From: an uncultured bacterium
GTDB taxonomy: Bacteria > Desulfobacterota > BSN033 > UBA1163
Assembly (NCBI GenBank): GCA_938002255.1
Contig: CALLAL010000020.1
Location: forward strand, 1 to 64,000
Reading direction: 5' to 3'
DNA: 64,000 nt
Part shown: positions 1-17,903 of the stretch, in pieces
Position numbering within the stretch: the first letter of the stretch is position 1
Layout: every line of letters starts with the position of its first letter
Program-made: the position numbers and the translations under genes
The notes under the pieces: model-generated
Databases searched by the model: none
Seen by the model: the letters and a program-made list of their open reading frames with translations, nothing else
What the model was told of the DNA's origin: nothing

Positions 1-1515
1 ATGGAAACAAGAAGACTGAAAAACTTTATCAATGGGCAATGGGTGGAATCGAAAACAAACCGATGGCTTGAGGTGAGGAATCCGGCAACAGACGAGGTGA
101 TTGCCCTCTGTCCCGAAACGACTCCGGACGAAATTGATCGCACTGTGAGAGTGGCTCAGGAAGCTTTCTGGGCCTGGAGGACGACCCCGCCTCCCCGAAG
201 GGCAAAAATGCTCTTCCAGTTCCACGAGAGGCTGCAAAAACATCTTGATGAAATCGCAGAATATATTGTGAATGAAAATGGAAAAACCCTCGCAGACGCC
301 AGGGGTGAGATGACCCGAGCCATGGAATATGTGGAACACGCCTGTGCAGGACCGGAACTGCTCAAAGGGAGTCATGCGGAGGATGTTGGGACGGGAGTGG
401 ATACCATGTACATTCGTGAGCCTCTCGGTGTTTTTGTCTTCCTTCCGCCTTTTAACTTTCCTGCGATGATTGCCCTTTACTTTGTATGGGCCCTTGCGGC
501 AGGGGACACGGTCATCGTCAAATCGAGCCGTCTTTGCCCCATGACGATTACTCGAATTTTTGAGATTGCGGAGGAGTGCGGGTTTCCTAAGGGTGTTCTC
601 AATCTGTTGCATGGCTCGGGTAGTGGTGTGGGAGAGGCTTTAATTACTCATCCTGGAACGGCAGGGGTCTCTTTTGTGGGATCCTCAGAGGTGGGGGAAC
701 GGGTTTATAAAACAGCGATCAACCATGGTAAGAGAGCCCAGTGTCAGGGAGGGGCCAAGAACCATGTCCTGATTGCGGAAGACGCCATTCTCGATGAGGT
801 GATGCAGAACGTAGTGGATTCTTGTTTCGGTCATGTTGGAGAGCGATGTTTTGCTGTGTCAAATGTGCTGGCTGTTGAAAAGGTCTATGAAAAAGCCAAG
901 GAAAAATTTATTGAGCTCTCAAAAAAACTTATTCTCGGCTATGGAATGGATACGGGAGTCACGCTCGGACCGGTTGTCTCTAAGGATGCTTTGAACGAAC
1001 TATTGACTGAAATTGACCAAGGGGTCAAAGATGGAGCAAGGTTGCTTCTCGATGGCAGGAATTCCAAAGTGGAAAAATACCCGAAAGGATACTTTCTTGG
1101 CCCAACGGTTTTAGAAGCAGAACCAGAGATGCGTATCTTCCAGATTGAAGTGTTTGGACCGGTCCGTTGCTTAAAGAAGGTTAAGGATTTGGCAGAGGGG
1201 GTTCATGTGATCAATCAGAGTCGGTATGGTCATACAGCAAACATTTACACTGAGAACGGAGGTTGGGCCCGTGAATTTGCCCGGTCGGTTCAAGTTGGAC
1301 AGGTAGGGATTAATATTGGCACTCCCGCTCCCATTGCTTATTTTCCTGTCGGTGGAAGAAAAATCTCAATGTTTGGCGACATTCGAGGACGCGCCAATGA
1401 GGCCATAGATTTTTATACGGACAAGAAAGTGATTATCAGCCGGTGGCATTCTTCGCTCCGTGGAACAGCAAAATCTCTCGACGACGGGTTTGCTATGAAG
1501 TATTCAAAGAAGTAA
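1..1515 (+). CDS. mmsA: CoA-acylating methylmalonate-semialdehyde dehydrogenase-like aldehyde dehydrogenase
   Basis: This is a 504-residue aldehyde dehydrogenase of the CoA-acylating MMSDH type, which oxidises a 2-substituted malonate semialdehyde with NAD and CoA and loses the carboxylate as CO2. The catalytic Cys is C283 in GERC. The general-base Glu of ordinary ALDHs is replaced by Asn254 in GGAKNH, which is diagnostic of MMSDH. The conserved EVFGPV motif carries E383. The length is normal for the family. The ATG is the first base of the window, so the start matches the family N-terminus but its ribosome-binding site cannot be seen. It lies 121 bp ahead of the molybdenum-hydroxylase genes on the same strand. 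The family assignment is seen in sequence. The proposed substrate, 2-formylglutarate giving glutaryl-CoA, is inferred from the Ena and Hnr homologues downstream. The alternative is a true MMSDH in valine or inositol breakdown. Confidence 0.85.
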   Translation: METRRLKNFINGQWVESKTNRWLEVRNPATDEVIALCPETTPDEIDRTVRVAQEAFWAWRTTPPPRRAKMLFQFHERLQKHLDEIAEYIVNENGKTLADARGEMTRAMEYVEHACAGPELLKGSHAEDVGTGVDTMYIREPLGVFVFLPPFNFPAMIALYFVWALAAGDTVIVKSSRLCPMTITRIFEIAEECGFPKGVLNLLHGSGSGVGEALITHPGTAGVSFVGSSEVGERVYKTAINHGKRAQCQGGAKNHVLIAEDAILDEVMQNVVDSCFGHVGERCFAVSNVLAVEKVYEKAKEKFIELSKKLILGYGMDTGVTLGPVVSKDALNELLTEIDQGVKDGARLLLDGRNSKVEKYPKGYFLGPTVLEAEPEMRIFQIEVFGPVRCLKKVKDLAEGVHVINQSRYGHTANIYTENGGWAREFARSVQVGQVGINIGTPAPIAYFPVGGRKISMFGDIRGRANEAIDFYTDKKVIISRWHSSLRGTAKSLDDGFAMKYSKK

Positions 1516-1636: not shown

Positions 1637-2107
1637 ATGGAAGTCAACCTTAGGTTTACCCTGAACGGGAGAATGATACACGTGATGGTTCCTCCTCATT
1701 GGACACTCCTTCGGGTTCTTCGAGAAACATTAGGACTGACAGGCACGAAGGAGGGGTGTGGGATTGGAGAATGCGGAGCGTGTACGGTCTTGATGAATGG
1801 GAAACCGGTTAATGCCTGCCTCATCCTGGCTCCGAAGGCAGAGGGGAAAAGTATAGAAACAGTAGAAGCGTTAGCAAGCCAAGATTCTCTTCATCCACTT
1901 CAAAAATCTTTCATTCAACATGGTGCGGTTCAATGTGGATTCTGTACTCCTGGCATCTTGATGTCTGCCAAAGCCCTCTTAGAGGATAAACCACACCCGG
2001 ACAAGGAAGAGGTGAAAGAAGCCATCTCAGGTCATCTCTGCCGGTGTACAGGATACCAGCAGATCATAGAAGCGATTCAACGCGTTGGAGAAAAGGTTAA
2101 AAGATGA
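1637..2107 (+). CDS. Molybdenum hydroxylase small subunit, two [2Fe-2S] clusters
   Basis: This is a 156-residue iron-sulfur subunit of the xanthine dehydrogenase / CO dehydrogenase (CoxS, NdhS) family. It passes electrons between the molybdenum site and FAD. Cys41, 46, 49 and 61 form the plant-type [2Fe-2S] site (CGIGECGAC plus C61). Cys100, 103, 135 and 137 form the second site (CGFC and CRC). Length and cysteine spacing are complete. It is followed by the FAD and molybdenum subunits, giving the S-M-L set of a nicotinate- or purine-type hydroxylase. The ribosome-binding site is weak. The family is certain. The substrate, probably nicotinate hydroxylated at C6, is inferred only from the neighbouring Ena- and Hnr-like genes. 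Confidence 0.93.
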   Translation: MEVNLRFTLNGRMIHVMVPPHWTLLRVLRETLGLTGTKEGCGIGECGACTVLMNGKPVNACLILAPKAEGKSIETVEALASQDSLHPLQKSFIQHGAVQCGFCTPGILMSAKALLEDKPHPDKEEVKEAISGHLCRCTGYQQIIEAIQRVGEKVKR

Positions 2108-2215: not shown

Positions 2216-3088
2216 ATGATTCTTCCTTTCGACTATCAAACTCCGAAGACACTTAAAGAGGCCTGCCGACTGTTAGGGGAGGCAAAAGGAAAAGCAAAAG
2301 TCATTGCGGGTGGAACCGATCTGGTTATCCGCCTGCGAAATGAAGAAGAGAAACCTGACCTGCTTGTTGATGTCACATGTCTTGAAGAACTTAAAGGAAT
2401 AGAAGAATCGGATGGAACTCTTTCTATAGGGGCGACCGTGACTCATTCAGAGATTTCAGATTCTTCCATTGTAAAACGATATGGAAGTGTCCTCGCAAAA
2501 GCCGCCTCTCAAATTGGTTCGCCACAAATTAGAAATCTCGGGACCATCGGAGGAAATATTATTAATGCTTCTCCGGCTGCGGATACACTCCCGGCTTTAA
2601 TGGTGCTAAATGCGGTAGGAAGAGTCGTTTCTTCAGAAAGTGAACGGGAGGTTCCCGTTCGGCAGCTTTTAGAAAGCCCTTACAAATCGGCACTGAAACC
2701 TGATGAACTTTTAGTCCGAATTCAGTTTAAGAAACTTTCACAAGATACCTGTTGCTCTTTTCATAGATTGGCAAGAAGAGAGGCAATGGCTATAGCAAGA
2801 ATGAGCTTGGCGCTTCTCTTCCGGATGAGAGACGGAAACATCAGCGATTTTCGATTTTCACCGGGCGCAGTCTTACCCGTGCCAGATCGATTAGAGGAGG
2901 TTGAGACATTTCTGGAAGGTCGGTCTCCTGAAGAGGATCTATTGAGGGCAGCCGCATGTAAAGTTTCAGAAGCGATCGTGAAAAGAAGTGGAATACGCCC
3001 TTCCACCTCCTATAAAGCTCCTGTCATCGAAGCCCTCTTTTTGAGAGCCATGCGAGAGGCGATGCAACAATGCCAATCAAACAAATAG
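2216..3088 (+). CDS. Molybdenum hydroxylase FAD-binding subunit
   Basis: This is the middle (CoxM/NdhF-type) subunit, which carries FAD and passes electrons to NAD or another acceptor. The two FAD motifs are clear: AGGTDL near the N-terminus and TIGGNIINASPAAD in the centre. The reading frame stays open back to a TTG at 2123. However, the family begins at MILPFDYQTPKTL, so I place the start at the ATG at 2216 (290 residues). The extra upstream codons cover the hairpin repeat and look non-coding. The gene overlaps the next start by 19 bases, as expected for coupled subunits. No Shine-Dalgarno is obvious before 2216. Confidence 0.88.
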   Translation: MILPFDYQTPKTLKEACRLLGEAKGKAKVIAGGTDLVIRLRNEEEKPDLLVDVTCLEELKGIEESDGTLSIGATVTHSEISDSSIVKRYGSVLAKAASQIGSPQIRNLGTIGGNIINASPAADTLPALMVLNAVGRVVSSESEREVPVRQLLESPYKSALKPDELLVRIQFKKLSQDTCCSFHRLARREAMAIARMSLALLFRMRDGNISDFRFSPGAVLPVPDRLEEVETFLEGRSPEEDLLRAAACKVSEAIVKRSGIRPSTSYKAPVIEALFLRAMREAMQQCQSNK

Positions 3089-5337
3089 GTATTGATATCC
3101 CCAAAGTAGATGCAAACAACAAGGTTCGAGGTGTGGCACAATTTGGTGCAGATCTTTCTGTGAGTTCTCCTCTTCACCTGAAGGTGGTTCGAAGTACAAA
3201 ACATCACGCAAAGGTTATTAAGATCAAAACAGAAGAGGCCAGTAGGGTCAAAGGCGTCGAGAGAATTTTTACAGCCCAGGATATCCCGGGGAAGCATTTA
3301 GTTGGGACCATTACGAAAGATCAACCCGTCCTTGTTTCAGACCGGGTCAGATATGTGGGTGATCCACTGGCAATCGTTGCCGCTCAAACCATAGAAGCGG
3401 CTGAAGAGGCCGTTAAAAAGGTAGAAATTCTCTACGAAGATTTACCCTCTGTCCACACCCCTGAGGAAGCCCTTAAACCCCATGCTCCTCTCATCCATGA
3501 CCATGGAAACCTTCTGATCGAATTTCAAGTCGTTAAAGGTGATGTTGTTGCAGGGTTTAAAGAGGCGGAGGTAATCGTTGAGGAACTTTACGAGACGACA
3601 TGGGTTGACCATGCCTATATGGAGCCAGATGCAGGGATTGGGTTTATGGATGAAGAGGGAAGGGTAACGGTAGTCTGTCCCTCTCAAAACGTTCATTACG
3701 ATCAGAAAGAAGTGGCAGGAGTTCTTTCGTTGCCTCTTGAGAAAGTTCGAATCATTCAGTGTGCCACGGGAGGCGGATTTGGTGGAAGGCTCGACATCAC
3801 GGTACAATGTCTTCTTGCCCTTGCCACTTACCATCTCAAAAGACCCGTTCGAATCGTTTACTCACGGGAAGAAGTTTTTGATGTTATTTCTAAACGCCAT
3901 CCGTTAACCATACGATACAAAAGTGGAGCAAAGAAGGATGGGAGACTGACCGCTATTGAGGTGGAGATTTTAGGGGATACCGGAGCTTATGCCTCCTATG
4001 GCGCAACCGTAGGGATTCGGTCAGCAGTTCATGCCACTGGCCCCTACCAAGTCCCGAATATAAAGGTGAGAAGCCGTATGGCTTACACCAATAATCCATG
4101 GTCAGGCGCCATGAGGGGCTTTGGGGTTCCTCAGATCGCTTTTGCTCATGAATCTCAAATGGACCTTCTCGCCAAGGCGATTCAAATGGACCCGATCGAT
4201 TTTCGCCTTAAGAATGCCTTGACCATCGGTTCAGAAACCGCAACGGGACAGAGCCTGATGGCAAGTGTTGGAATCGGGGAGTCCCTCCGGAGAGTGAAAA
4301 CATGGAGAGATCAGTTGATTTCTGTTTCATGCGATTCTCCAAGACCTCATCTCAGAAGAGGCATCGGGATTGGTTCAATGTGGTATGGTATCGGTAATAC
4401 AGGAATTGCAAATCCCTCGACAGCCCAGATAGAGATTTTACCGAACGGAGAAGTTCGACTTCTAACGGGGGTAGCGGATATCGGACAGGGTTCGGATACC
4501 GTGCTTCTTCAGATGGCCTCAGAAGCACTGGGAGTTCCGATACAAGAAATTAAACTCATTCGGGCTGATACGGCCTTCACAACCGATGCTGGAGCCACAT
4601 CCGCAAGCCGCCAGACTTATATCTCAGGGAATGCTGTCCTCCAGGCTATAAGGCATTTAAAACAGGAAATTCTGAGAGAGGCAGCCTCTTTTCTTCAGGA
4701 AGATGAGGCGGACCTTTTTGTTGAAGATGGAGAGGTAAGACATCGCAAGAAACGATGCATTTCCTTACCCATAAGAGAAATTGCCAAGAGAACACAGAAG
4801 AGATTTAAGGGGGAAGGGAGCTATGACCCTGAAACAAGAAAACTGGATCCCCAAACAGGTCAGGGAGCTCCCTATGCGACCTATGCGTTTGCAACCCACC
4901 TGGCCGAAGTGGAGGTGGATACCGAAACAGGCAAGGTCAAGGTGATTCGAGTGGTGGCGTGCCATGATGTTGGAAAAGCGATACATCCACAAAATATCGT
5001 AGGGCAAATCATCGGTGGGGTCGCAATGGGCGTGGGCTTCGCTCTCATGGAAGAATATATCCCGGGAGAGACAACTTCTTTTGTAAATTACCTCATTCCA
5101 ACTTCGAAAGATGTTCCGGAAGTGATCCCGATTCTTGTGGAAGACAGAGAACCCAGTGGTCCCTTTGGAGCCAAAGGGGTAGGGGAGCCGGCCCTTATTC
5201 CTTCAGCACCCGCTATTTTAAATGCCATTGCGGATGCCATAGGGGAGAGGATTTATCATTTACCGGCTAATCTGGAGAGGGTACTCGAAGCGGTTAAAAA
5301 AAGTAAAAGAGGAGGAAAAACATGGCAGCCCTGTTGA
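3070..5337 (+). CDS. Molybdenum hydroxylase large (molybdopterin-binding) subunit
   Basis: This 755-residue catalytic subunit belongs to the xanthine dehydrogenase / CoxL family and hydroxylates a heterocycle with water as oxygen donor. GGGFGGR (residues 234-240) contacts the molybdenum cofactor. The catalytic Glu is E706 in AKGVGEPAL. The motif RGFGVPQ is also present. Unlike the E. barkeri nicotinate dehydrogenase, whose molybdenum part is split between NdhL and NdhM, this subunit is one chain. It does not carry the AYRCF-type loop of CO dehydrogenase that I would expect in a true CoxL. It overlaps the FAD subunit upstream and the enamidase downstream (16 bases). The nicotinate-type substrate is inferred from context, and a purine or another N-heterocycle remains possible. 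Confidence 0.9.
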   Translation: MPIKQIGIDIPKVDANNKVRGVAQFGADLSVSSPLHLKVVRSTKHHAKVIKIKTEEASRVKGVERIFTAQDIPGKHLVGTITKDQPVLVSDRVRYVGDPLAIVAAQTIEAAEEAVKKVEILYEDLPSVHTPEEALKPHAPLIHDHGNLLIEFQVVKGDVVAGFKEAEVIVEELYETTWVDHAYMEPDAGIGFMDEEGRVTVVCPSQNVHYDQKEVAGVLSLPLEKVRIIQCATGGGFGGRLDITVQCLLALATYHLKRPVRIVYSREEVFDVISKRHPLTIRYKSGAKKDGRLTAIEVEILGDTGAYASYGATVGIRSAVHATGPYQVPNIKVRSRMAYTNNPWSGAMRGFGVPQIAFAHESQMDLLAKAIQMDPIDFRLKNALTIGSETATGQSLMASVGIGESLRRVKTWRDQLISVSCDSPRPHLRRGIGIGSMWYGIGNTGIANPSTAQIEILPNGEVRLLTGVADIGQGSDTVLLQMASEALGVPIQEIKLIRADTAFTTDAGATSASRQTYISGNAVLQAIRHLKQEILREAASFLQEDEADLFVEDGEVRHRKKRCISLPIREIAKRTQKRFKGEGSYDPETRKLDPQTGQGAPYATYAFATHLAEVEVDTETGKVKVIRVVACHDVGKAIHPQNIVGQIIGGVAMGVGFALMEEYIPGETTSFVNYLIPTSKDVPEVIPILVEDREPSGPFGAKGVGEPALIPSAPAILNAIADAIGERIYHLPANLERVLEAVKKSKRGGKTWQPC

Positions 5338-6488
5338 TTAAAAATATTGGAACATTGGTTTCTGGTGATATTTCAAACCCTATTCTGAGCGGGAAGGCCC
5401 TTCTTATTGAAGGAGGGTTGATTCGAGGCATAGGGAACGAAAAAGAATTGGAAACCAAGGGAGTAGATCAAATCATTGATATCGGAGGCATGACCCTCAC
5501 TCCTGGTTTGATTGATTCCCACTGTCATCCAGTATTAGGTGATTTTACTCCCAGACAGAAGATGCTTGATTTCATAGAATCTTCTCTCCATGGAGGGGTA
5601 ACCACAGCGATTTCGGCCGGAGAGGTCCATCTGCCTGGCAGACCAAAAGATGTGGCCGGGACAAAGGCGCTTGCCATCCTCGCAGCCAAATCGTTTGAAA
5701 ATGCAAGACCCGCAGGGGTTAAGGTGCTTGGAGGAAGCATTATTCTCGAACCTGGACTTCAAGAGAAAGATTTCGAAGAACTGGCAAAAGAGGGTGTCAA
5801 AGTTGTCGCGGAGATAGGGCTTGGGGGAATTAAGAGCCCAAAAGAAGCTGCTCCTATGGTTAAGTGGGCCCAAAAAAACGGAATGATTGTGATGATGCAT
5901 ACTGGAGGGACCTCGATTCCCGGAAGCACGACGGTTCCTGCAGAGGATGTGATTGCTGCCGGCCCAGATATCGTTTCTCATATCAACGGCGGTCCAACTG
6001 CGGTCTCCATTTCAGAAGCTGAAAAATTGATCCGGCATACAGACCTCATCCTGGAAATTGTTCATTGTGGAAATCCAAAGATGATCGTGGAGGTGATGAA
6101 GATCGTTAAAGAGGTGAAAGCCTATTCACGGGTGATCATCGGAAACGACGCCCCCTCTGGAACGGGGGTCATTCCACTTGGGATACTTCGGGTTATCAAT
6201 TTTCTTGCTTCCCTTTGCGGGGTGAAAGCTGAGGAAGCCATTGCCATGGCAACAGGCAATACTGCCAGAGTCTATCGGCTCAATCGGGGTATCATTGAAG
6301 TTGGAAGAGAGGCCGATTTTGTGATTATGGATGCGCCAATGGGATCCGTGGGAAAGGATGCCCTTTCGGCCATTGAAGCAGGAGATATTCCGGGTATTGC
6401 AGGGGTATGGATTGATGGCGTCATGAAGATCGGCATAAGCCGAAATACACCACCGCCCAATCGAAAAATGACTATAACGAAACCCTAA
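5322..6488 (+). CDS. ena: Enamidase (6-oxo-1,4,5,6-tetrahydronicotinate amidohydrolase)
   Basis: This 388-residue metal-dependent amidohydrolase closely resembles, from memory, the E. barkeri enamidase along its whole length. Shared stretches include SSLHGGVTT, PGRPKD, MHTGGTSIPGS, SHINGGPTA, GNDAPSGTG and SRNTPP. Ena opens 6-oxotetrahydronicotinate to 2-formylglutarate and ammonia. Probable metal ligands are H67 and H69 (DSHCHP), E164, H193, H220 and D276. The start overlaps the end of the molybdenum subunit by 16 bases, so it is translated from the same message. It sits between the hydroxylase and the reductase that would make its substrate. The family call is strong and the exact substrate is inferred from that resemblance. 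Confidence 0.88.
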   Translation: MAALLIKNIGTLVSGDISNPILSGKALLIEGGLIRGIGNEKELETKGVDQIIDIGGMTLTPGLIDSHCHPVLGDFTPRQKMLDFIESSLHGGVTTAISAGEVHLPGRPKDVAGTKALAILAAKSFENARPAGVKVLGGSIILEPGLQEKDFEELAKEGVKVVAEIGLGGIKSPKEAAPMVKWAQKNGMIVMMHTGGTSIPGSTTVPAEDVIAAGPDIVSHINGGPTAVSISEAEKLIRHTDLILEIVHCGNPKMIVEVMKIVKEVKAYSRVIIGNDAPSGTGVIPLGILRVINFLASLCGVKAEEAIAMATGNTARVYRLNRGIIEVGREADFVIMDAPMGSVGKDALSAIEAGDIPGIAGVWIDGVMKIGISRNTPPPNRKMTITKP

Positions 6489-6562: not shown

Positions 6563-8098
6563 ATGATTGTTGATTGGGAAACCTGTATTGGATGTGGTCT
6601 CTGTGTGGAGACTTGTCCACTATCTGCCATTACGCTTCTCGGGGAGAAAAAGAAAAAGAAAAAAGCATCCATTTCCGATCTCTGTGCGGATTGTAAAGCC
6701 TGTACAAAGGTCTGTCCTGTTGATGCGATCAAAGAAGTGTTAAAGCCCGAACGAACAGGCGTTCAATGTAAATCCTGTCCGATCAACTGTCTGATCCAAT
6801 TAAACCATACGGGAGCCTGCCAACGATTTATCAACCGGAATGGAGAACTGGTCCGAAATATTCCGCTTCAACGTTATCAAGATGTGAGTGACATTGTAGG
6901 GAATGATCATGAAGGAGCGATTCGAAGACCATTGATTACTGGCATAGGCGCAGGAACGACCTATCCTGATACAAAACCTGCCCCTTACATTGTTCAGTCT
7001 GAAGTGGATGGCATTGATGTGGTTACAGTGGTCACTGAGGCTCCGTTGAGTTACAGCGGCATCAAAGTGAAGATAGATACGGATAAAAACATCGGTCAAG
7101 AGGGTGCTTCTGTACTTATTGGAAAAAAGAGAGTGGGCCATCTCTGCACAGAGGAATATGGGTCGAAGATTCTTTCTCTGGGAGGGGTTAATCTGCTTAC
7201 AGGAAAAGACGGATTGACCGTTGCTCGGATGATTGTTGATATTGCCAACCGTAAAGAGGTTGTGCTCAAAGTGGAAGGGGGAGCTGAGCTAAAGCTTCAA
7301 GTTGGCAAAACTCCTATCATCAACGGAGAAGAAGGAAAAAGGATGCGGGTCGGTTGTGGGAGTGCCTCCATGGGTCTCTTCGGGAGATATTATCTGAAAG
7401 CTGCTGATGAGGTGATTGTTCTGGACTCCCATCTCATCGGGCAGTTTACAGAACATGCGGCTGGAAGGGAGTTGGGTGCCCGATACAGTGGCATTCGTTT
7501 GAGGGCAAGGCGGTCGACCCCTGGTCGTTATTTTGGAGAGCATGGGAAGGGATGGGGAGGCACGCCTATTGAGCATCCTTTAGAGATCATCGAAGGTTTT
7601 GATCCGAACACGACGAAACCAGGGATGACCGTACTCATTACGGAAACAACGGCAGAGAAGGCTTCCATGTTTCGCCTCAACGAAAAGGGGGATTTTATTG
7701 AAATCGAGTTAACCCCAGAGGCAAAGGGGGCGATCGAAATGATGGCGGCCACCTGTCAACCTTCGAGGGTTTCAGCCCTCTATGTGGGGGGAGCCGGTGG
7801 GAGTGCGAGAGCGGGGGTTACAAAAATTCCTGTAAAGCTAAATCAGGCCATCCATCAGAATCGTGCAAAGCTGACTGTGGGAGGGGCACCCACTTATATT
7901 CTGCCAGGCGGGGGAATCACATTTATGGTGGATGTGGAGAAGGTGATGGTCAAGGCATTTACCTATGTGCCAACACCTGCTACGGTTGTCCCTCTCGAAT
8001 ATACGATGAGATTGGAAGACTATCTCGAGATCGGAGGACATCAGGAGGCCATTCGGAAGTTAGAAGACGTGTTGAATGAGATCAAGGGTTCCATATGA
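6563..8098 (+). CDS. hnr: 6-hydroxynicotinate reductase (ferredoxin-domain flavoprotein)
   Basis: This 511-residue protein has the architecture of 6-hydroxynicotinate reductase (Hnr), which uses reduced ferredoxin to reduce the pyridine ring to 6-oxotetrahydronicotinate. Residues 1-60 form a two-cluster ferredoxin domain (Cys 8, 11, 14, 18 and 41, 44, 47, 51). A third group of cysteines follows at 69, 72, 76 and 86. The rest is the Hnr body, including GKGWGGTPIEHPLEII and GGAGGSARAGVTKIP, with no similarity I can see to benzoyl-CoA reductases. The start is an ATG at 6563 preceded by an AAAGGGG-type site. The stop overlaps the next start as ATGA. The pathway role rests on this homology and on the adjacent enamidase. 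Confidence 0.82.
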   Translation: MIVDWETCIGCGLCVETCPLSAITLLGEKKKKKKASISDLCADCKACTKVCPVDAIKEVLKPERTGVQCKSCPINCLIQLNHTGACQRFINRNGELVRNIPLQRYQDVSDIVGNDHEGAIRRPLITGIGAGTTYPDTKPAPYIVQSEVDGIDVVTVVTEAPLSYSGIKVKIDTDKNIGQEGASVLIGKKRVGHLCTEEYGSKILSLGGVNLLTGKDGLTVARMIVDIANRKEVVLKVEGGAELKLQVGKTPIINGEEGKRMRVGCGSASMGLFGRYYLKAADEVIVLDSHLIGQFTEHAAGRELGARYSGIRLRARRSTPGRYFGEHGKGWGGTPIEHPLEIIEGFDPNTTKPGMTVLITETTAEKASMFRLNEKGDFIEIELTPEAKGAIEMMAATCQPSRVSALYVGGAGGSARAGVTKIPVKLNQAIHQNRAKLTVGGAPTYILPGGGITFMVDVEKVMVKAFTYVPTPATVVPLEYTMRLEDYLEIGGHQEAIRKLEDVLNEIKGSI

Positions 8099-8979
8099 CC
8101 AAGAGCCACAAAGCAAATAGAGAGCAAGATTTCAACGGGATTCAACAACTTCCCTACGGAGCCATCCTCGTGGATTATGGACCCATGCGGATGTCTATTT
8201 CGGTCCACGAGTATGAAAAAGTTCTCACCTCTTTAGCGAGAGAGGGAGCGTTTTATGCCATCCATCTGCTCGAAGAGTTATCAAAATTTTTGCCTGTGAT
8301 GAAGAGGAGGTCCGTGGAGATTGATATCCAGGACACATTTCCAGAAGTTCTTCAAAGGATGGTAAGAGCGACAAAAGAATTTGGAGAAGAGGAATTGACG
8401 CCTCTGGCTGCTGTGGCTGGGAGCATCTCGGAGATGATCGCTGACTTTGTTTATGAAAAGGGGGGGACAAAAGTCCTTGTGGACAATGGAGGCGATATCG
8501 CTATTCGATTAAGAGAAGGAGAGGTAGCCCGAGTCGGCATCAAGGTGGAGATTGAAGCCCTTCGGCCCACCTATCTCCTGACCATCGATTCGACCATGGG
8601 AATGGAAGGGGTTGCTACCAGTGGGTTCGGAGGAAGAAGCTTTACAAAAGGGATCGCTTCGGCAGCCACTGTTCTTGCAAAGAAAGCCTCTTTAGCCGAT
8701 GCGGCAGCGACGATCATTGGTAATTTTACCACTGTTGATGATCCAAATATCTCAAGGGCGCTTGCTGAAAAAATTTACCCTGATACGGATATCACCGGTC
8801 AATGGATAACGACCAGAGTGGGGCCTTTACCCCTCAAGAAGGTTGAGGAAGCATTGGAAAAAGGTCTGTCCAAGGCTTCGATGCTCCATCAAAAAGGATT
8901 AATCCACGGAGCTTTTATTGCCTTACAGGGGAGAACTGTCTGGACAGATCCTATAAATCCTTTGATCTCATATTTATAG
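8095..8979 (+). CDS. UPF0280 family protein (ApbE-like fold)
   Basis: This 294-residue protein is of the UPF0280 family, which is distantly related to ApbE, the flavin transferase. GVATSGFGGRSFTKGI and SLADAAATIIGN correspond to the ATSG and ADALAT regions of ApbE, but the DPRTG-type motif of active FMN transferases is not seen. There is no signal peptide, so it should be cytoplasmic. The start ATG overlaps the hnr stop (ATGA), so translation is coupled to the reductase. A role in flavin or cofactor handling for Hnr, or a catalytic step in the pathway, is a guess. The biochemical function is unknown. Confidence 0.8.
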   Translation: MTKSHKANREQDFNGIQQLPYGAILVDYGPMRMSISVHEYEKVLTSLAREGAFYAIHLLEELSKFLPVMKRRSVEIDIQDTFPEVLQRMVRATKEFGEEELTPLAAVAGSISEMIADFVYEKGGTKVLVDNGGDIAIRLREGEVARVGIKVEIEALRPTYLLTIDSTMGMEGVATSGFGGRSFTKGIASAATVLAKKASLADAAATIIGNFTTVDDPNISRALAEKIYPDTDITGQWITTRVGPLPLKKVEEALEKGLSKASMLHQKGLIHGAFIALQGRTVWTDPINPLISYL

Positions 8980-13317: not shown

Positions 13318-14163
13318 TCATTCCCGCTCGTGGCGATGGAAGAGATAATGAGAGTGGAGATGGCGGTGGGTAACGTCCCCATGGCGATGGATATGTTCGT
13401 GAATCAGGTTAACCCTGAGCAAGAGGTCTTGATCTCCAAGGACGTTCATCGCACTGCCTACCCTTTCAATCTGGTGGTCTTCTGAAAGAATAGCCGTTGT
13501 TGCCTGCAGTTCATCGACCAGAGAGAGATCGTGGGTCGCAATGACCAATGTCTTTCCTGCTTCATTTAAAGCCAGCATCAGTTCCACGAGGGAACATTGA
13601 GTTTTTGGATCGAGCCCGTTCGTGGGTTCGTCCAGAAGTAACACTTCTGGATTTATGGTTAAGATCGAGCCTATGGCCACTTTTTTCTTCTCCCCGCCAG
13701 AGAGCATATAGGTCGGTCTCGATTTCAACGGTTCAATCTTGAGCATCTCCATGACCTCAAAAGCTCTGTCCAACGCCTCTGCTTCGCCGATCTCAAGCTG
13801 GAGGGGACCATAGAGCAGTTCATCAAGAACGGTCGGACAAAAGAGCTGGACATCCGAATCCTGAAACACATACCCAACCTTTGCCCTAAAAAAACTCAAG
13901 AATCCTTTATCCTTTAAGGTCTCTTTTGAGATTTCGCTCCCTTTAAAGAAAACCCTCCCTTTTGAAGGAAAAATCAATCCGTTCATAATCTGAAGCAGGG
14001 TCGTTTTCCCTGTTCCATTCGCGCCAATGATGGCAAACCGTTCGCCTTTAACAATCTCTAAGCTGATCTCGGATAGAGCGGAGATGTCATTCTGGTAATT
14101 GTAACTGACCTTCTCAAGACAGATGATCTTCTCTCTTATTTTCTGTGTTTCATTTATTTCCAT
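13318..14163 (-). CDS. cbiO: Nickel/cobalt ECF transporter ATPase with His-rich tail
   Basis: This 281-residue ATPase of the CbiO/NikO type powers an energy-coupling-factor metal transporter. Walker A is GANGTGKTT, the Q-loop is VFQDSDVQLFCPTV, the signature is LSGGEKKKVAIG, Walker B is VLLLDEPTNGLD and the switch His is in ATHD. The last 30 or so residues (LIHEHIHRHGDVTHRHLHSH and onward) hold ten histidines and look like a metal-binding tail. The start overlaps the CbiQ gene by 10 bases. The subunits upstream (CbiM-DUF4198 fusion, NikL-like) favour nickel over cobalt, but the metal is inferred. Confidence 0.93.
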   Translation of the reverse strand: MEINETQKIREKIICLEKVSYNYQNDISALSEISLEIVKGERFAIIGANGTGKTTLLQIMNGLIFPSKGRVFFKGSEISKETLKDKGFLSFFRAKVGYVFQDSDVQLFCPTVLDELLYGPLQLEIGEAEALDRAFEVMEMLKIEPLKSRPTYMLSGGEKKKVAIGSILTINPEVLLLDEPTNGLDPKTQCSLVELMLALNEAGKTLVIATHDLSLVDELQATTAILSEDHQIERVGSAMNVLGDQDLLLRVNLIHEHIHRHGDVTHRHLHSHYLFHRHERE

Positions 14164-15080
14164 AGGAGAAGGCTACCTATGCACAAGAAGGAGAATCCTG
14201 CAATCCAATCGTGAGGTTGCAAGGTTTTGACTTGATAGACTTTAATGGTGTCGCTAAATCCTCTGCTGACCATTGCCCGAAACACCTCGTCTGCCCTTAA
14301 TCGGGTCTTGCGAAAGAGGAAGGCCATCCGACCTGCAAGCCACATTCGTGCCTCTTTCGATTTTGGCTCTTTCAGAAGTCTGCTTCTTTTTGCAAGATGC
14401 ATTTCCTCAACTGTTTTTGAGAAAAGAAAAAGGTATTGGTAAGAGAGGGTGATGACCATGAGGAAGGTATCCGGGACTCTGAGGAGTTTTAAAGCCCTGA
14501 TGATTTCTGGAAACGGTGTCGTATAAAGTAACAGAAACGTCAAGGAGAGGGAATTGACCACTCGAAGCGTGATCATTCCCAATCCGTAAACCCCTTCTCG
14601 GGTGACCCCTACGGTTTCGGGAAGGGAATAAATCCAGAGTTGATAGGAGCGGGAAAAAGATAAAAAGGGGAGCAGAATTTCTCCCTCTTTGAAAAGGTTT
14701 AAGGCGGAAGGAAGGGCGACCAGAAATCCAAAGACCATTCCGAACAACAGAATTCTCTTATAGAGGTGAAGAAGATTTAAACGAGAAAGAGCCATGAGAA
14801 GAAGAACCAGCAAACCGATCCAAATTTCAGATTCAATGTCCTTTTTCAAACTGATGATGGTCATAAAAAAGAGGAGAAAAAGGAGTTTTATTCGAGCATC
14901 AATTTTCTGGAAAACCCCTTCTTTTGAAGCTGCGTTCCACTGGGCATAAGCGATTTTGACGATCTCACCGAGGTGCTCCATCCCTTTTTCGAGAAAAGGG
15001 GTTCTTACCCTTTTCCCTTTCAACTGGAATGAATCGGGGGAATCCTGTTTCAGTAAAAAAGAGGGGATCAGGTCTTCCAT
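14154..15080 (-). CDS. cbiQ: ECF transporter transmembrane subunit CbiQ/NikQ
   Basis: This 308-residue membrane subunit couples the ATPase to the metal-binding CbiM. About five to six hydrophobic helices are visible. Near the C-terminus, EVFRAMVSRGFSD is the conserved cytoplasmic coupling region of EcfT/CbiQ proteins (the ARG-type motif here reads SRG). A soluble stretch of about 65 residues precedes the first membrane helix (KLLFLLFFMTIISL). It overlaps cbiO and lies 23 bp downstream of the outer-membrane protein gene. The family is clear and the metal is inferred from the operon. Confidence 0.9.
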   Translation of the reverse strand: MEDLIPSFLLKQDSPDSFQLKGKRVRTPFLEKGMEHLGEIVKIAYAQWNAASKEGVFQKIDARIKLLFLLFFMTIISLKKDIESEIWIGLLVLLLMALSRLNLLHLYKRILLFGMVFGFLVALPSALNLFKEGEILLPFLSFSRSYQLWIYSLPETVGVTREGVYGLGMITLRVVNSLSLTFLLLYTTPFPEIIRALKLLRVPDTFLMVITLSYQYLFLFSKTVEEMHLAKRSRLLKEPKSKEARMWLAGRMAFLFRKTRLRADEVFRAMVSRGFSDTIKVYQVKTLQPHDWIAGFSFLCIGSLLLWK

Positions 15081-15103
15081 AACGTTGCTTTCGCCACAGC
15101 CAT

Positions 15104-16087
15104 CTAAAAATAAAACGAGAGTGTCACAATCGCTCTAACCTTTTCAAGGCCTTCGGCCCCTTGCTGTTCACCCTTTTCGTTTAGGTTTTTGAGGGTAGGA
15201 AATTTTAACATCAGGCCGAAACTGCCGTTTAAAGGTTTTGGGAATGAGACGCGAAATCCAGGCGAAAGGTAGAGGATCGTTCCACCTGTGGCCCTCTGTT
15301 TCTCTCTGCCTTCTTCGTCACGTGCGATATGGAGTAAATTCAATTCAATAATTCCATCAACCTTCGAAATAAGACCTTCAGGTTTTCCATATAGCTCGTA
15401 TATTCCCGCAAGATTGGCTCTCCATTCGTTCCCAAATTTAAACCGGTCTTTCCTCGTAAAAATATCATAAGAGGTATCCGCCGCGAGGGTCAAGGGACCC
15501 GTTAACTGTCGGGTGGCTGAAAACCCCAGGGTGTAGGACGGACTCCCAAAACCGGGTTGCATCCCTGGATCTATCTCTCCACCAAGTTCTTTTCGGTTTT
15601 TTCCCGTGGGGAGGGTCGCTCCGGCGAATACGGAGAGATAGGTCTTTTTTACTCCTTCAAGGGTGATGGCCGTGTCCTGGTCTGTGTTCAAACGAATGCC
15701 TTTGATCTGGGGATCATAGTTAAATCCAAGATTAAAAAGGAATTTCACATCACCGATCCCTCTGGTCTTCCCCAGATCGTCCTGTCGTTTCACATTATAA
15801 GGAAGAAAAAGATTTCCGGTCAGGAAGGGAGTGATCCCATAAGAAAGCCCCATGTTAAAGAAAGTAAAAGAATCCTTGTTGATTGGTTCAGTGAAGGTTC
15901 GCTTTTTCCATTCCACATGTTCTATCCTGGAAGAAATAACAAAGGCACCCCGAGGAAGGGTTAGAGGAGAGTTGGTCTCCATGGGACTTCCGGGTCCCAT
16001 AGCAAGGCTGATTCCACCATGATGGGCCCTAACCGTTAAAGGCATGAATAAAAGCAACACGATCACAAGCATCGCCGATCTTTTCAT
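15104..16087 (-). CDS. Putative outer-membrane beta-barrel protein of the nickel operon
   Basis: This 327-residue exported protein has a signal peptide ending near residue 22 (LTVRAHHGG). The body has alternating beta-strand character and a C-terminus ending in aromatic-flanked strands (IVTLSFYF), typical of an outer-membrane barrel with terminal Phe. It resembles the family annotated as 'MetA-pathway of phenol degradation' or simply 'transporter'. A conserved HHGG lies just after the cleavage site. Its ATG overlaps the NikL-like stop, so it belongs to the metal-uptake operon. A role in passing nickel across the outer membrane is inference. Confidence 0.72.
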   Translation of the reverse strand: MKRSAMLVIVLLLFMPLTVRAHHGGISLAMGPGSPMETNSPLTLPRGAFVISSRIEHVEWKKRTFTEPINKDSFTFFNMGLSYGITPFLTGNLFLPYNVKRQDDLGKTRGIGDVKFLFNLGFNYDPQIKGIRLNTDQDTAITLEGVKKTYLSVFAGATLPTGKNRKELGGEIDPGMQPGFGSPSYTLGFSATRQLTGPLTLAADTSYDIFTRKDRFKFGNEWRANLAGIYELYGKPEGLISKVDGIIELNLLHIARDEEGREKQRATGGTILYLSPGFRVSFPKPLNGSFGLMLKFPTLKNLNEKGEQQGAEGLEKVRAIVTLSFYF

Positions 16088-16557
16088 CTCTTTTCCTCCT
16101 TTTGGGCAAGGGTTTTTCTTGATTTCCAGAGTGCGTAAACCCCGAAGAATCCCAAAATGAGACTTATACCGACAATCAGTTTGGTATGGGTGGCTAAAAG
16201 AGGTTTGCTGAAGGACTGGACTTGGAAGTTTTGATCCACGTTAACGTCGATGGTCACGCCGTGAAATCCATGGGAAGATTCTCCCCAAGCCTTGATTTTC
16301 CAGGGTCCAGCCCGATCCGGTAGAAAGGAGAGGAAACCATTTTTATCCGTCCGCCCGATCTGATGGGGTTCCTGATCCCCGGGACCAAAGAGTTCATATT
16401 CAGAATAACTGGCGGGATTGTTCTCAGCATAGAATATTTTTACTGACACGCCTTTCTGCTGGACATCGTAATGAATGGAGTGACTCCAGGCCACCGAAGT
16501 GAACGTAAAAAGAATCATCAACCACAGAATTTTAGAAGCCATTTTGGTCTTCTTCAT
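16084..16557 (-). CDS. NikL-like periplasmic/membrane accessory protein
   Basis: This 157-residue protein has an N-terminal signal (cut near VAWS|HSIHY), a small beta-rich domain with GRTDKNGFLSFLPDRAGPW like a carboxypeptidase-regulatory fold, and a single C-terminal membrane helix (LIVGISLILGFFGVYALW). This layout matches NikL, the accessory subunit that replaces NikN in NikKLMQO nickel transporters. It overlaps both neighbours by 4 bases. A His immediately after the predicted cleavage site could ligate metal. The family call is moderate because it rests on layout and context. Confidence 0.68.
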   Translation of the reverse strand: MKKTKMASKILWLMILFTFTSVAWSHSIHYDVQQKGVSVKIFYAENNPASYSEYELFGPGDQEPHQIGRTDKNGFLSFLPDRAGPWKIKAWGESSHGFHGVTIDVNVDQNFQVQSFSKPLLATHTKLIVGISLILGFFGVYALWKSRKTLAQKEEKR

Positions 16558-17903
16558 GGGTTCATCTCGAAAGTAAGAGTGGACGTGATCGTGAGATAGT
16601 CAGCATCGGGATCATTTTTCAATGGTTCTCTGAGAGTTACAGAAATCAGTTGACTTCCCTTGGTAAGAGGGACTCTTGCCTCTCCTTGCAAATTCGTGGC
16701 AGCCGTCTTTTGGTGATCCCCTCCCTCAAGATGGACTCCCGAAACAGGTTTTCCTTGAAAGATCACCCGAATGGGGAGAAGTGTTCCTGCTTTCAAATCG
16801 AAGGGATTCTCAAGAGGAATAATCTCCAGCGTTGAATCACTCAAAGGTGTTGGGGCTCGTTCACCCCATGAGAGAAGTAATTTTGAGTAGTAAAGAGAAC
16901 GACTCGATTCAATCACGCGGCTTGCTTTTCTCTTGGGTAGATTTTTCCATCCATAAATCGTTTTTGACCAGTAACCGTTGTCAACCTCTGCAAAGACGAA
17001 AGCAGGGGGGCGGTCTGTTTTTAGCAGCAGACTGGACCCTTTTTTCTCACTGCTTACGGTGACCTCTTTCCCGTTGGAATCAAAAGCTTTCACTTGTTTG
17101 ACCTTGGACAGGTCGAAGTCTTCTCGTTTGGTCCCATGTCCAAAGACCAACCAGAGTTCTTTCCCTTTTTGCTCTATCCAGAAATCATGGGCGTGAACGG
17201 CCGGAGGGAGTGAACATAAAAAAATGGTTAAAAGAAGGAGCCCCAATTTTTTCGACACGTTCCATCGTCCAGGTTGACTTTTGAGAATGAGGGTAAAGAC
17301 AAGGAAGGTGACCGAGGCTTCCATTAACCCTAAAATCGTTAAATGAGGTATCATCACCGCTGGAATGGCTATTTTTAGAGGAAAAGGAAAGTAGGAAGCA
17401 GCGGTATGAAAGATGGATTGCAGGCCCAGTTCAAAAGCCGTGAACATGCCGCTCAAGTTGAGAGAGAGGTATGAAGCAATCCCGGCGGCCACTGCCCGAG
17501 GAATACCTCTCGGAAGAGTCAACAATCGATAAAACCCCCATCCACTTACAGAACCCACAAAGGCGATGTTAAAACAGTTGGCTCCAAGGGCGGTGACCCC
17601 TCCTTCTCCGAAGACCAAAGCCTGGATGGCCAGAGCGACGGAAATTGCAAGGATTGCAGGCCAGGGGCCAAGAAGAATGGCTACCAGGGCAGAACCATTA
17701 AGATGACCAGTCGTCCCACCAGGCAGGGGAATAGCAAAAATCATCGCCCCAAGGCTAAAAACAGAGGCCATGGCTAGAAATGGGATTTGGGCGGTTTCGA
17801 GGCTCTTTTTTACTTTTCTGGAGGCATAAACCCAAATGGGCAGCATTGCAGTCCATAGTCCCCCGTAGGTAACAGGTCCCAAATATCCATCCGGGATATG
17901 CAT
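16554..17903 (-). CDS. cbiM: CbiM metal-binding permease fused to a DUF4198 (NikK-like) domain
   Basis: This is a 449-residue fusion. Residues 1 to about 212 are CbiM/NikM: an N-terminal MHIPDGYL whose His2 binds the metal in this family, GGTTGHLNG with His67, and six or seven membrane helices. Residues 219-238 are a signal-like helix ending in VHAHDFW. The remaining 210 residues are a DUF4198/NikK-like extracytoplasmic domain (SLYYSKLLLSW, ATNLQGEARVPL). Separate NikM and NikK subunits are known in nickel ECF transporters, and here they are one chain. AAGGAGG lies upstream of the ATG. It is the first gene of the operon and is preceded by a structured hairpin at 17957-18012. Confidence 0.85.
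   Translation of the reverse strand: MHIPDGYLGPVTYGGLWTAMLPIWVYASRKVKKSLETAQIPFLAMASVFSLGAMIFAIPLPGGTTGHLNGSALVAILLGPWPAILAISVALAIQALVFGEGGVTALGANCFNIAFVGSVSGWGFYRLLTLPRGIPRAVAAGIASYLSLNLSGMFTAFELGLQSIFHTAASYFPFPLKIAIPAVMIPHLTILGLMEASVTFLVFTLILKSQPGRWNVSKKLGLLLLTIFLCSLPPAVHAHDFWIEQKGKELWLVFGHGTKREDFDLSKVKQVKAFDSNGKEVTVSSEKKGSSLLLKTDRPPAFVFAEVDNGYWSKTIYGWKNLPKRKASRVIESSRSLYYSKLLLSWGERAPTPLSDSTLEIIPLENPFDLKAGTLLPIRVIFQGKPVSGVHLEGGDHQKTAATNLQGEARVPLTKGSQLISVTLREPLKNDPDADYLTITSTLTFEMNP

Follow-up and report, generated by a model that had tools for sequence, protein, structure and literature searches.

In the nicotinate fermentation of E. barkeri, said to have been described by Alhapel et al. (2006), nicotinate hydroxylase, 6-hydroxynicotinate reductase (Hnr) and enamidase (Ena) reportedly convert nicotinate to 2-formylglutarate, which is then reduced and carried by the B12 mutase Mgm, Mii and DmdAB to propionate and pyruvate. 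Nicotinate catabolism in Azorhizobium caulinodans (Kitts et al. 1992, as summarised in PMC3511419) is reported to proceed via THON to glutarate. A further source on the E. barkeri and Azorhizobium routes is PMC9304392.

The DNA analysed here, called the window, spans bases 1-64000 of C20, a contig from a 3.27 Mb genome (G000). As in E. barkeri, homologues of the hydroxylase, Hnr and the enamidase are clustered in it. However, the E. barkeri lower-route genes are missing from clusters that bear an MMSDH-family gene, and Mgm is missing from G000. Sequence comparison makes it probable that the MMSDH-family enzyme encoded in the window converts 2-formylglutarate to glutaryl-CoA within an anaerobic nicotinate operon. 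The proposed route resembles that of Azorhizobium in leading through THON to a C5 dicarboxylate (glutarate), whereas the alphaproteobacterial hnr loci examined are without a nearby MMSDH-type gene.

The conversion of nicotinate to 2-formylglutarate in E. barkeri, the glutarate intermediate in Azorhizobium and the enzyme family are already known. What appears to be new is the direct CoA-acylating step, along with its occurrence in both bacteria and archaea and the fact that it would have originated twice. The literature searched, with most subscription journals outside its scope, held no mention of formylglutarate together with glutaryl-CoA. If correct, the proposal would fill in the second half of anaerobic nicotinate oxidation, which is missing for organisms other than the fermenting Firmicutes, and add a new substrate for the well-known MMSDH enzyme family. 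Annotation pipelines could then stop labelling the genes of this clade as valine enzymes in MAGs of several phyla, and ecologists could recognise nicotinate oxidisers from MAGs.

The probable nicotinate cluster and its first gene

The cluster runs from the MMSDH-family gene through those for the [2Fe-2S], FAD and molybdopterin subunits of a hydroxylase to ena, hnr, an ApbE-like gene and an AA_synth gene (Table 1), and most genes after the first overlap or stand close together. Since this arrangement is found again in many genomes, it is not a product of chance. The joint presence in the window of nicotinate hydroxylase, Hnr and enamidase corresponds to an upper pathway of the E. barkeri type.

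Table 1. Predicted genes of the nicotinate cluster, in window coordinates
Feature	Position	Strand	Basis and remarks
MMSDH-family (CoA-acylating) aldehyde dehydrogenase, clade 1	1..1515	+	ATG start, 504 aa
Nicotinate hydroxylase-type [2Fe-2S] subunit, NdhS-like	1637..2107	+	Pfam Fer2, Fer2_2; conserved cluster position
Nicotinate hydroxylase-type FAD subunit, NdhF-like	2216..3088	+	Pfam FAD_binding_5, CO_deh_flav_C; start codon 2216 uncertain, picked by eye from the translation (ORF open from 2123)
Nicotinate hydroxylase-type molybdopterin subunit, NdhL/NdhM-like, unsplit	3070..5337	+	PDB match 3HRD
Enamidase, Ena	5322..6488	+	2VUN match
6-Hydroxynicotinate reductase, Hnr	6563..8098	+	Ferredoxin-like N-terminus (Fer4 domains) and conserved body
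ApbE-like protein, PRK04334 family	8095..8979	+	NF003322 226.8 bits (below cut-off), weak ApbE match
AA_synth family protein, PF06684	9033..9611	+	PF06684 252.9 bits

Among solved proteins, the best match of the molybdopterin subunit is E. barkeri nicotinate dehydrogenase 3HRD (4.6e-129), chain A of which matches residues 6-410 and chain B residues 429-745. The large subunit is a single 755-aa chain in the window; in Dethiosulfatibacter (L148:16156-18497) it is split into chains of 446 and 328 aa, like NdhL and NdhM of E. barkeri. The enamidase matches its E. barkeri counterpart 2VUN over the full length (6.6e-141), the next solved protein following at 1e-6. The predicted identity of Hnr is based on its N-terminal ferredoxin-like domain and on homologues from Firmicutes whose clusters contain the lower-pathway genes of E. 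barkeri. Judged by Hnr, the closest named relatives of G000 are Syntrophaceae/Thermodesulfobacteriota MAGs.

In the window, as at most hnr loci (32 of the 46 surveyed first), the ApbE-like gene adjoins hnr. Because E. barkeri Hnr reportedly carries a covalently bound flavin, the ApbE-like protein may be the transferase that attaches flavin to Hnr. The AA_synth gene, present in 31 of the same 46 loci, is among the most conserved members of the cluster in both bacteria and archaea, and its product has no role in the known nicotinate pathway. An Rfam search of the window gave no match.

The sequence-only reading had placed an MMSDH-like gene directly ahead of the hydroxylase, Ena and Hnr genes, and both the gene and the order are confirmed. 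The 504-aa protein scores 471.8 bits on TIGR01722 (MMSDH, NCBIfam), above the cut-off of 448.5, and its closest solved relative is B. subtilis MMSDH 1T90 (6.4e-119), followed by other MMSDHs. The gene looks complete because its orthologue in G111 has an equal length of 504 aa. An AlphaFold model (mean pLDDT 77) confirmed the fold, nearest to MMSDHs.

In the proposed pathway nicotinate, the substrate we infer for the window operon, would be taken up by a TRAP transporter encoded just upstream and hydroxylated by NdhSFL, a step known from E. barkeri and assigned here by homology. Hnr would reduce the product to tetrahydro-6-oxonicotinate, again as known from E. barkeri, and ring opening by Ena, likewise known from that organism and assigned by homology, would give 2-formylglutarate. 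By analogy with the MMSDH mechanism, Cys283 of the MMSDH-family enzyme would attack the aldehyde, with hydride passing to NAD; the beta-carboxylated thioester would then lose CO2 and the glutaryl group would be transferred to CoA, so that 2-formylglutarate would yield glutaryl-CoA, CO2 and NADH. Glutaryl-CoA would join the pool of the benzoyl-CoA lower pathway, where a glutaryl-CoA dehydrogenase of the Desulfococcus type would act on it, with onward flow into crotonyl-CoA. The MMSDH-family enzyme would in this way replace the Hgd, Mgm, Mii and DmdAB route of E. barkeri, including its B12-dependent mutase.

Two MMSDH-family clades at hnr loci

In an evenly drawn sample of 297 genomes of the phylum, Hnr occurs in 47. 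Ten of the 297 encode a clade-1 MMSDH, with 56% or higher identity to the window protein, and all 10 carry hnr, a co-occurrence with a hypergeometric probability of 4e-9 when kinship is ignored. G279, a genome of the same genus without hnr, has no clade-1 MMSDH. Linkage to ena and hnr in other genomes, which had been put forward as a check on the proposal, extends beyond the phylum: in a scan of one genome per species (84,980 species; 80 named loci kept), clade-1 genes lie within hnr clusters not only in Desulfobacterota but also in a Thermoplasmatales archaeon (L158) and an actinomycete (L174).

In a likelihood tree these hnr-linked genes form clade 1 (100/100), apart from IolA, MmsA and a paralogue of the window gene on contig C9, and only genes from hnr-bearing genomes fall into it. 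Another group of MMSDH-like proteins (clade 2) branches apart from it (100/100); its members are 36-43% identical to the window protein, and their genes hold the same cluster slot in many other Desulfobacterota and in a Hecatellales archaeon. One of its members (L037:8866-10347, minus strand) scores 397 bits on TIGR01722, below the cut-off of 448.5. Genes of sister genomes with 38% identity had been considered as the same orthologue; this was rejected, the tree placing them in a separate clade.

Active site, substrate pocket and alternative substrates

Loop 440-463 of the substrate pocket has a pLDDT under 50 in the AlphaFold model, and the pocket was therefore compared at the sequence level, in an alignment of 13 clade-1 rows, clade 2 and 15 canonical enzymes. 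Two residues, Asn254 and Cys283, had been called diagnostic in the sequence-only reading. Cys283, in a GERCFA motif, is indeed the catalytic cysteine and is kept in clade 1, clade 2 and the 15 canonical enzymes. Asn254 did not hold up in that role, being the asparagine of the family-wide GAKNH motif (GGAKNH here) and not the general-base position. The latter, Glu268 in ALDH2, is Gln249 in 13/13 clade-1 rows, Asn in clade 2 and Leu or Gln in canonical enzymes, the glutamate being lost in all. Arg106 and Arg282 are invariant across the alignment; they correspond to Arg107 and Arg283 of B. subtilis MMSDH, which hold the carboxylate adjacent to the aldehyde carbon.

The two clades depart from the canonical enzymes at the positions of Trp160 and Phe448 of 1T90, invariant in 15/15 canonical rows. 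Clade 1 has Tyr160 and Val450 there in 13/13 rows, and clade 2 has Ser and Leu. The position of 1T90 Asn409 is His in both clades (His411 here), and the window enzyme shows a one-residue deletion after 162 relative to 1T90. By standard alignment, Trp160 and Phe448 correspond to ALDH2 Trp177 and Phe465. In ALDH2 these residues form part of the floor of the substrate tunnel (PMC9781114). Smaller side chains at this depth, present in each of two separate clades, would suit a carboxyethyl group in place of the methyl group. The comparison with MMSDH that had been suggested earlier thus gives a signature of an enlarged pocket in which both carboxylate-binding arginines are kept.

The window enzyme shares with MmsA, IolA and ALDH6A1 its TIGR01722 score, the nearest solved fold, the catalytic Cys, the loss of Glu268 and the Arg pair; unlike them, it belongs to a separate clade, has the pocket aromatics replaced and stands in a nicotinate operon. 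As the canonical pocket residues Trp160 and Phe448 are absent, it was classed as belonging to a divergent branch within TIGR01722 and not as an MMSDH by substrate; membership of the family does not in itself determine the substrate.

The alternative that survives best, although it is unlikely, is that the substrate is glutarate semialdehyde, formed from 2-formylglutarate by spontaneous decarboxylation or by another enzyme, and that the product is glutaryl-CoA made without decarboxylation, or glutarate. Beta-aldehyde acids can decarboxylate, and the product would likewise end at the glutaryl-CoA dehydrogenase. The Azorhizobium route from THON through glutarate to TCA intermediates, as reported in PMC3511419 (citing Kitts 1992), also agrees with such a substrate. 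However, the arginines that would bind the carboxylate are kept in both hnr-linked clades, the occupation of the same slot by two separate MMSDH-family clades favours a substrate of the malonate-semialdehyde type, and no decarboxylase was recognised among the recurring cluster neighbours.

An ordinary MMSDH acting on methylmalonate or malonate semialdehyde (in valine, thymine, inositol or propionate metabolism) and standing beside the nicotinate genes by chance is very improbable. The score above the family cut-off would fit it, as would the clade-1 gene of G089, whose proximity to carboxylase and methylmalonyl-CoA mutase genes suits a propionate role. On contig C25 of that genome (L224:8841-12134) only a few genes separate the clade-1 gene from those for a carboxylase/decarboxylase alpha subunit and methylmalonyl-CoA mutase, which may be chance or may hint at a link to propionate. 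Against an ordinary MMSDH stand the replacement of two aromatics conserved in canonical pockets and the restriction of clade 1 to hnr-bearing genomes in the sample, together with the upstream genes and the paralogue.

Because contig C20 begins at window base 1, the upstream genes were deduced from another contig and from relatives. Contig C23 of G000 ends within a dctM that is 86% identical to the dctM preceding the orthologous MMSDH in G007, and ahead of this truncated gene lie dctQ, dctP and an HTH-cupin regulator (family names via homologues). The stretch from regulator through dctP and dctQ to dctM (G000:C23:42573-46145, equal to L222:2574-6146) is very likely the one missing before window base 1. 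The order TRAP genes, MMSDH, hydroxylase is seen in G007, G192, G215 and G111. A valine or inositol operon starting upstream, which the sequence-only reading had named as a finding that would overturn its proposal, is rejected: TRAP transporter genes stand at the end of C23, as they do before the MMSDH gene in four relatives, and such an operon is therefore excluded as far as the sequence goes. Moreover, G000 has a second MMSDH-family gene, the C9 paralogue, 47% identical to the window protein and close to the genes for the large and small subunits of methylmalonyl-CoA mutase; this canonical MMSDH can fill the ordinary role.

Hardly credible is an operon for a different N-heterocycle, with the enzyme turning a relative of 2-formylglutarate into another dicarboxylyl-CoA: hydroxylases of the nicotinate hydroxylase family do act on several heterocycles, and AA_synth and the ApbE-like protein are cluster members without an assigned role, but Ena and NdhL match E. 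barkeri nicotinate enzymes above any other solved protein, and nicotinamidase-like genes occur at the related hnr loci L074 and L042. The gene in L074 (1-696, plus strand) scores 182.8 bits against a cut-off of 174, and the nicotinamidase/pyrazinamidase-like gene at L042 (12304-13167, minus strand) scores 166.7 bits, just below it. These genes support nicotinate as the substrate and, lying in or beside hnr clusters, hint at nicotinamide as a possible entry point.

Downstream modules and the proposed sink for glutaryl-CoA

The 115 non-redundant hnr loci include 9 with a clade-1 gene, 32 with a clade-2 gene and 10 with the Mgm/Mii module, and no locus has more than one of these; if the three were independent, zero overlap would have a chance of about 0.01, ancestry ignored. 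Since the modules never overlap, the simplest reading is that they serve alternative fates of 2-formylglutarate. E. barkeri lower-route genes are found at Firmicutes loci, for example L128, L133, L144 and L148, and in deltaproteobacterium Smac51 (L155). They include a HIBADH-type dehydrogenase, a B12-binding mutase, a PrpF-family isomerase, aconitase-type dehydratase subunits, a PrpB-type lyase and MutL, not all of them in every locus. No recognised downstream module occurs in 13 of 48 long-flanked hnr loci, where a further route may exist. At L113, L130, L142, L157 and similar loci, ena does not adjoin hnr and has a divergent orientation.

The bypass of the E. barkeri B12 route, proposed from the window alone, agrees with a search of G000 for 2-methyleneglutarate mutase (Mgm). 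This gave only short matches to the B12-binding domain (best 6.7e-12), whereas the positive controls gave full-length matches of 68-100% identity in control genomes. The phylum-wide search for Mgm gave no match, a negative that says little by itself, and at the scope of the clusters neither Mii nor DmdAB was found in any clade-1 locus.

A probable glutaryl-CoA dehydrogenase, an enzyme which the sequence-only reading had named as one to look for, was found on contig C16 of G000 within a benzoyl-CoA cluster. The best solved relative of this acyl-CoA dehydrogenase is the Desulfococcus glutaryl-CoA dehydrogenase 3MPI (1.7e-112), leading the next solved relative by 65 bits, and its score on NF045552 (glutaryl-CoA dehydrogenase, Desulfococcus type) is 469.5 against a cut-off of 470 bits. 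It lies near EtfAB-like genes and two genes of the benzoyl-CoA lower pathway that score above their cut-offs. The benzoyl-CoA lower pathway with a Desulfococcus-type dehydrogenase (3MPI, NF045552) appears to be present in G000 and would take up the glutaryl-CoA; the difference here is that nicotinate would feed it as well.

In the phylum sample, glutaryl-CoA dehydrogenase is found in 38 of the 47 hnr genomes and in 69 of the 250 others. The benzoyl-CoA marker bamA is itself associated with hnr (35/47 versus 37/250, kinship ignored), and the dehydrogenase counts were stratified by bamA for this reason. Among bamA-positive genomes there is no added association between hnr and the dehydrogenase (28/35 versus 29/37), as expected if the enzyme is there anyway. 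Among bamA-negative genomes the dehydrogenase occurs in 10 of 12 with hnr and in 40 of 213 without it (p = 6e-6, kinship ignored). This comparison had no part in the original proposal and might have gone against it. Two of the 10 clade-1 genomes, G089 and G215, yielded no hit for the dehydrogenase at the search threshold applied. Should the enzyme, like that of Desulfococcus, be non-decarboxylating, the pathway would also need a glutaconyl-CoA decarboxylase.

With somewhat less confidence than for the window enzyme itself, it seems reasonably likely that B12-independent oxidation of nicotinate to glutaryl-CoA extends across Desulfobacterota and into some archaea and actinomycetes. MMSDH-family enzymes would have been recruited for it at least twice and independently, as clade 1 and as clade 2, with the pocket adapted each time to the 2-carboxyethyl side chain, and in sulfate reducers and syntrophs the route would feed the benzoyl-CoA lower pathway.

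Two minor observations concern gene location. The glutaryl-CoA dehydrogenase gene lies outside the nicotinate cluster, and a cobalt uptake system (CbiM, CbiQ and an ABC ATPase) is encoded at 13318-17903 of the window, near a pathway that apparently avoids B12.
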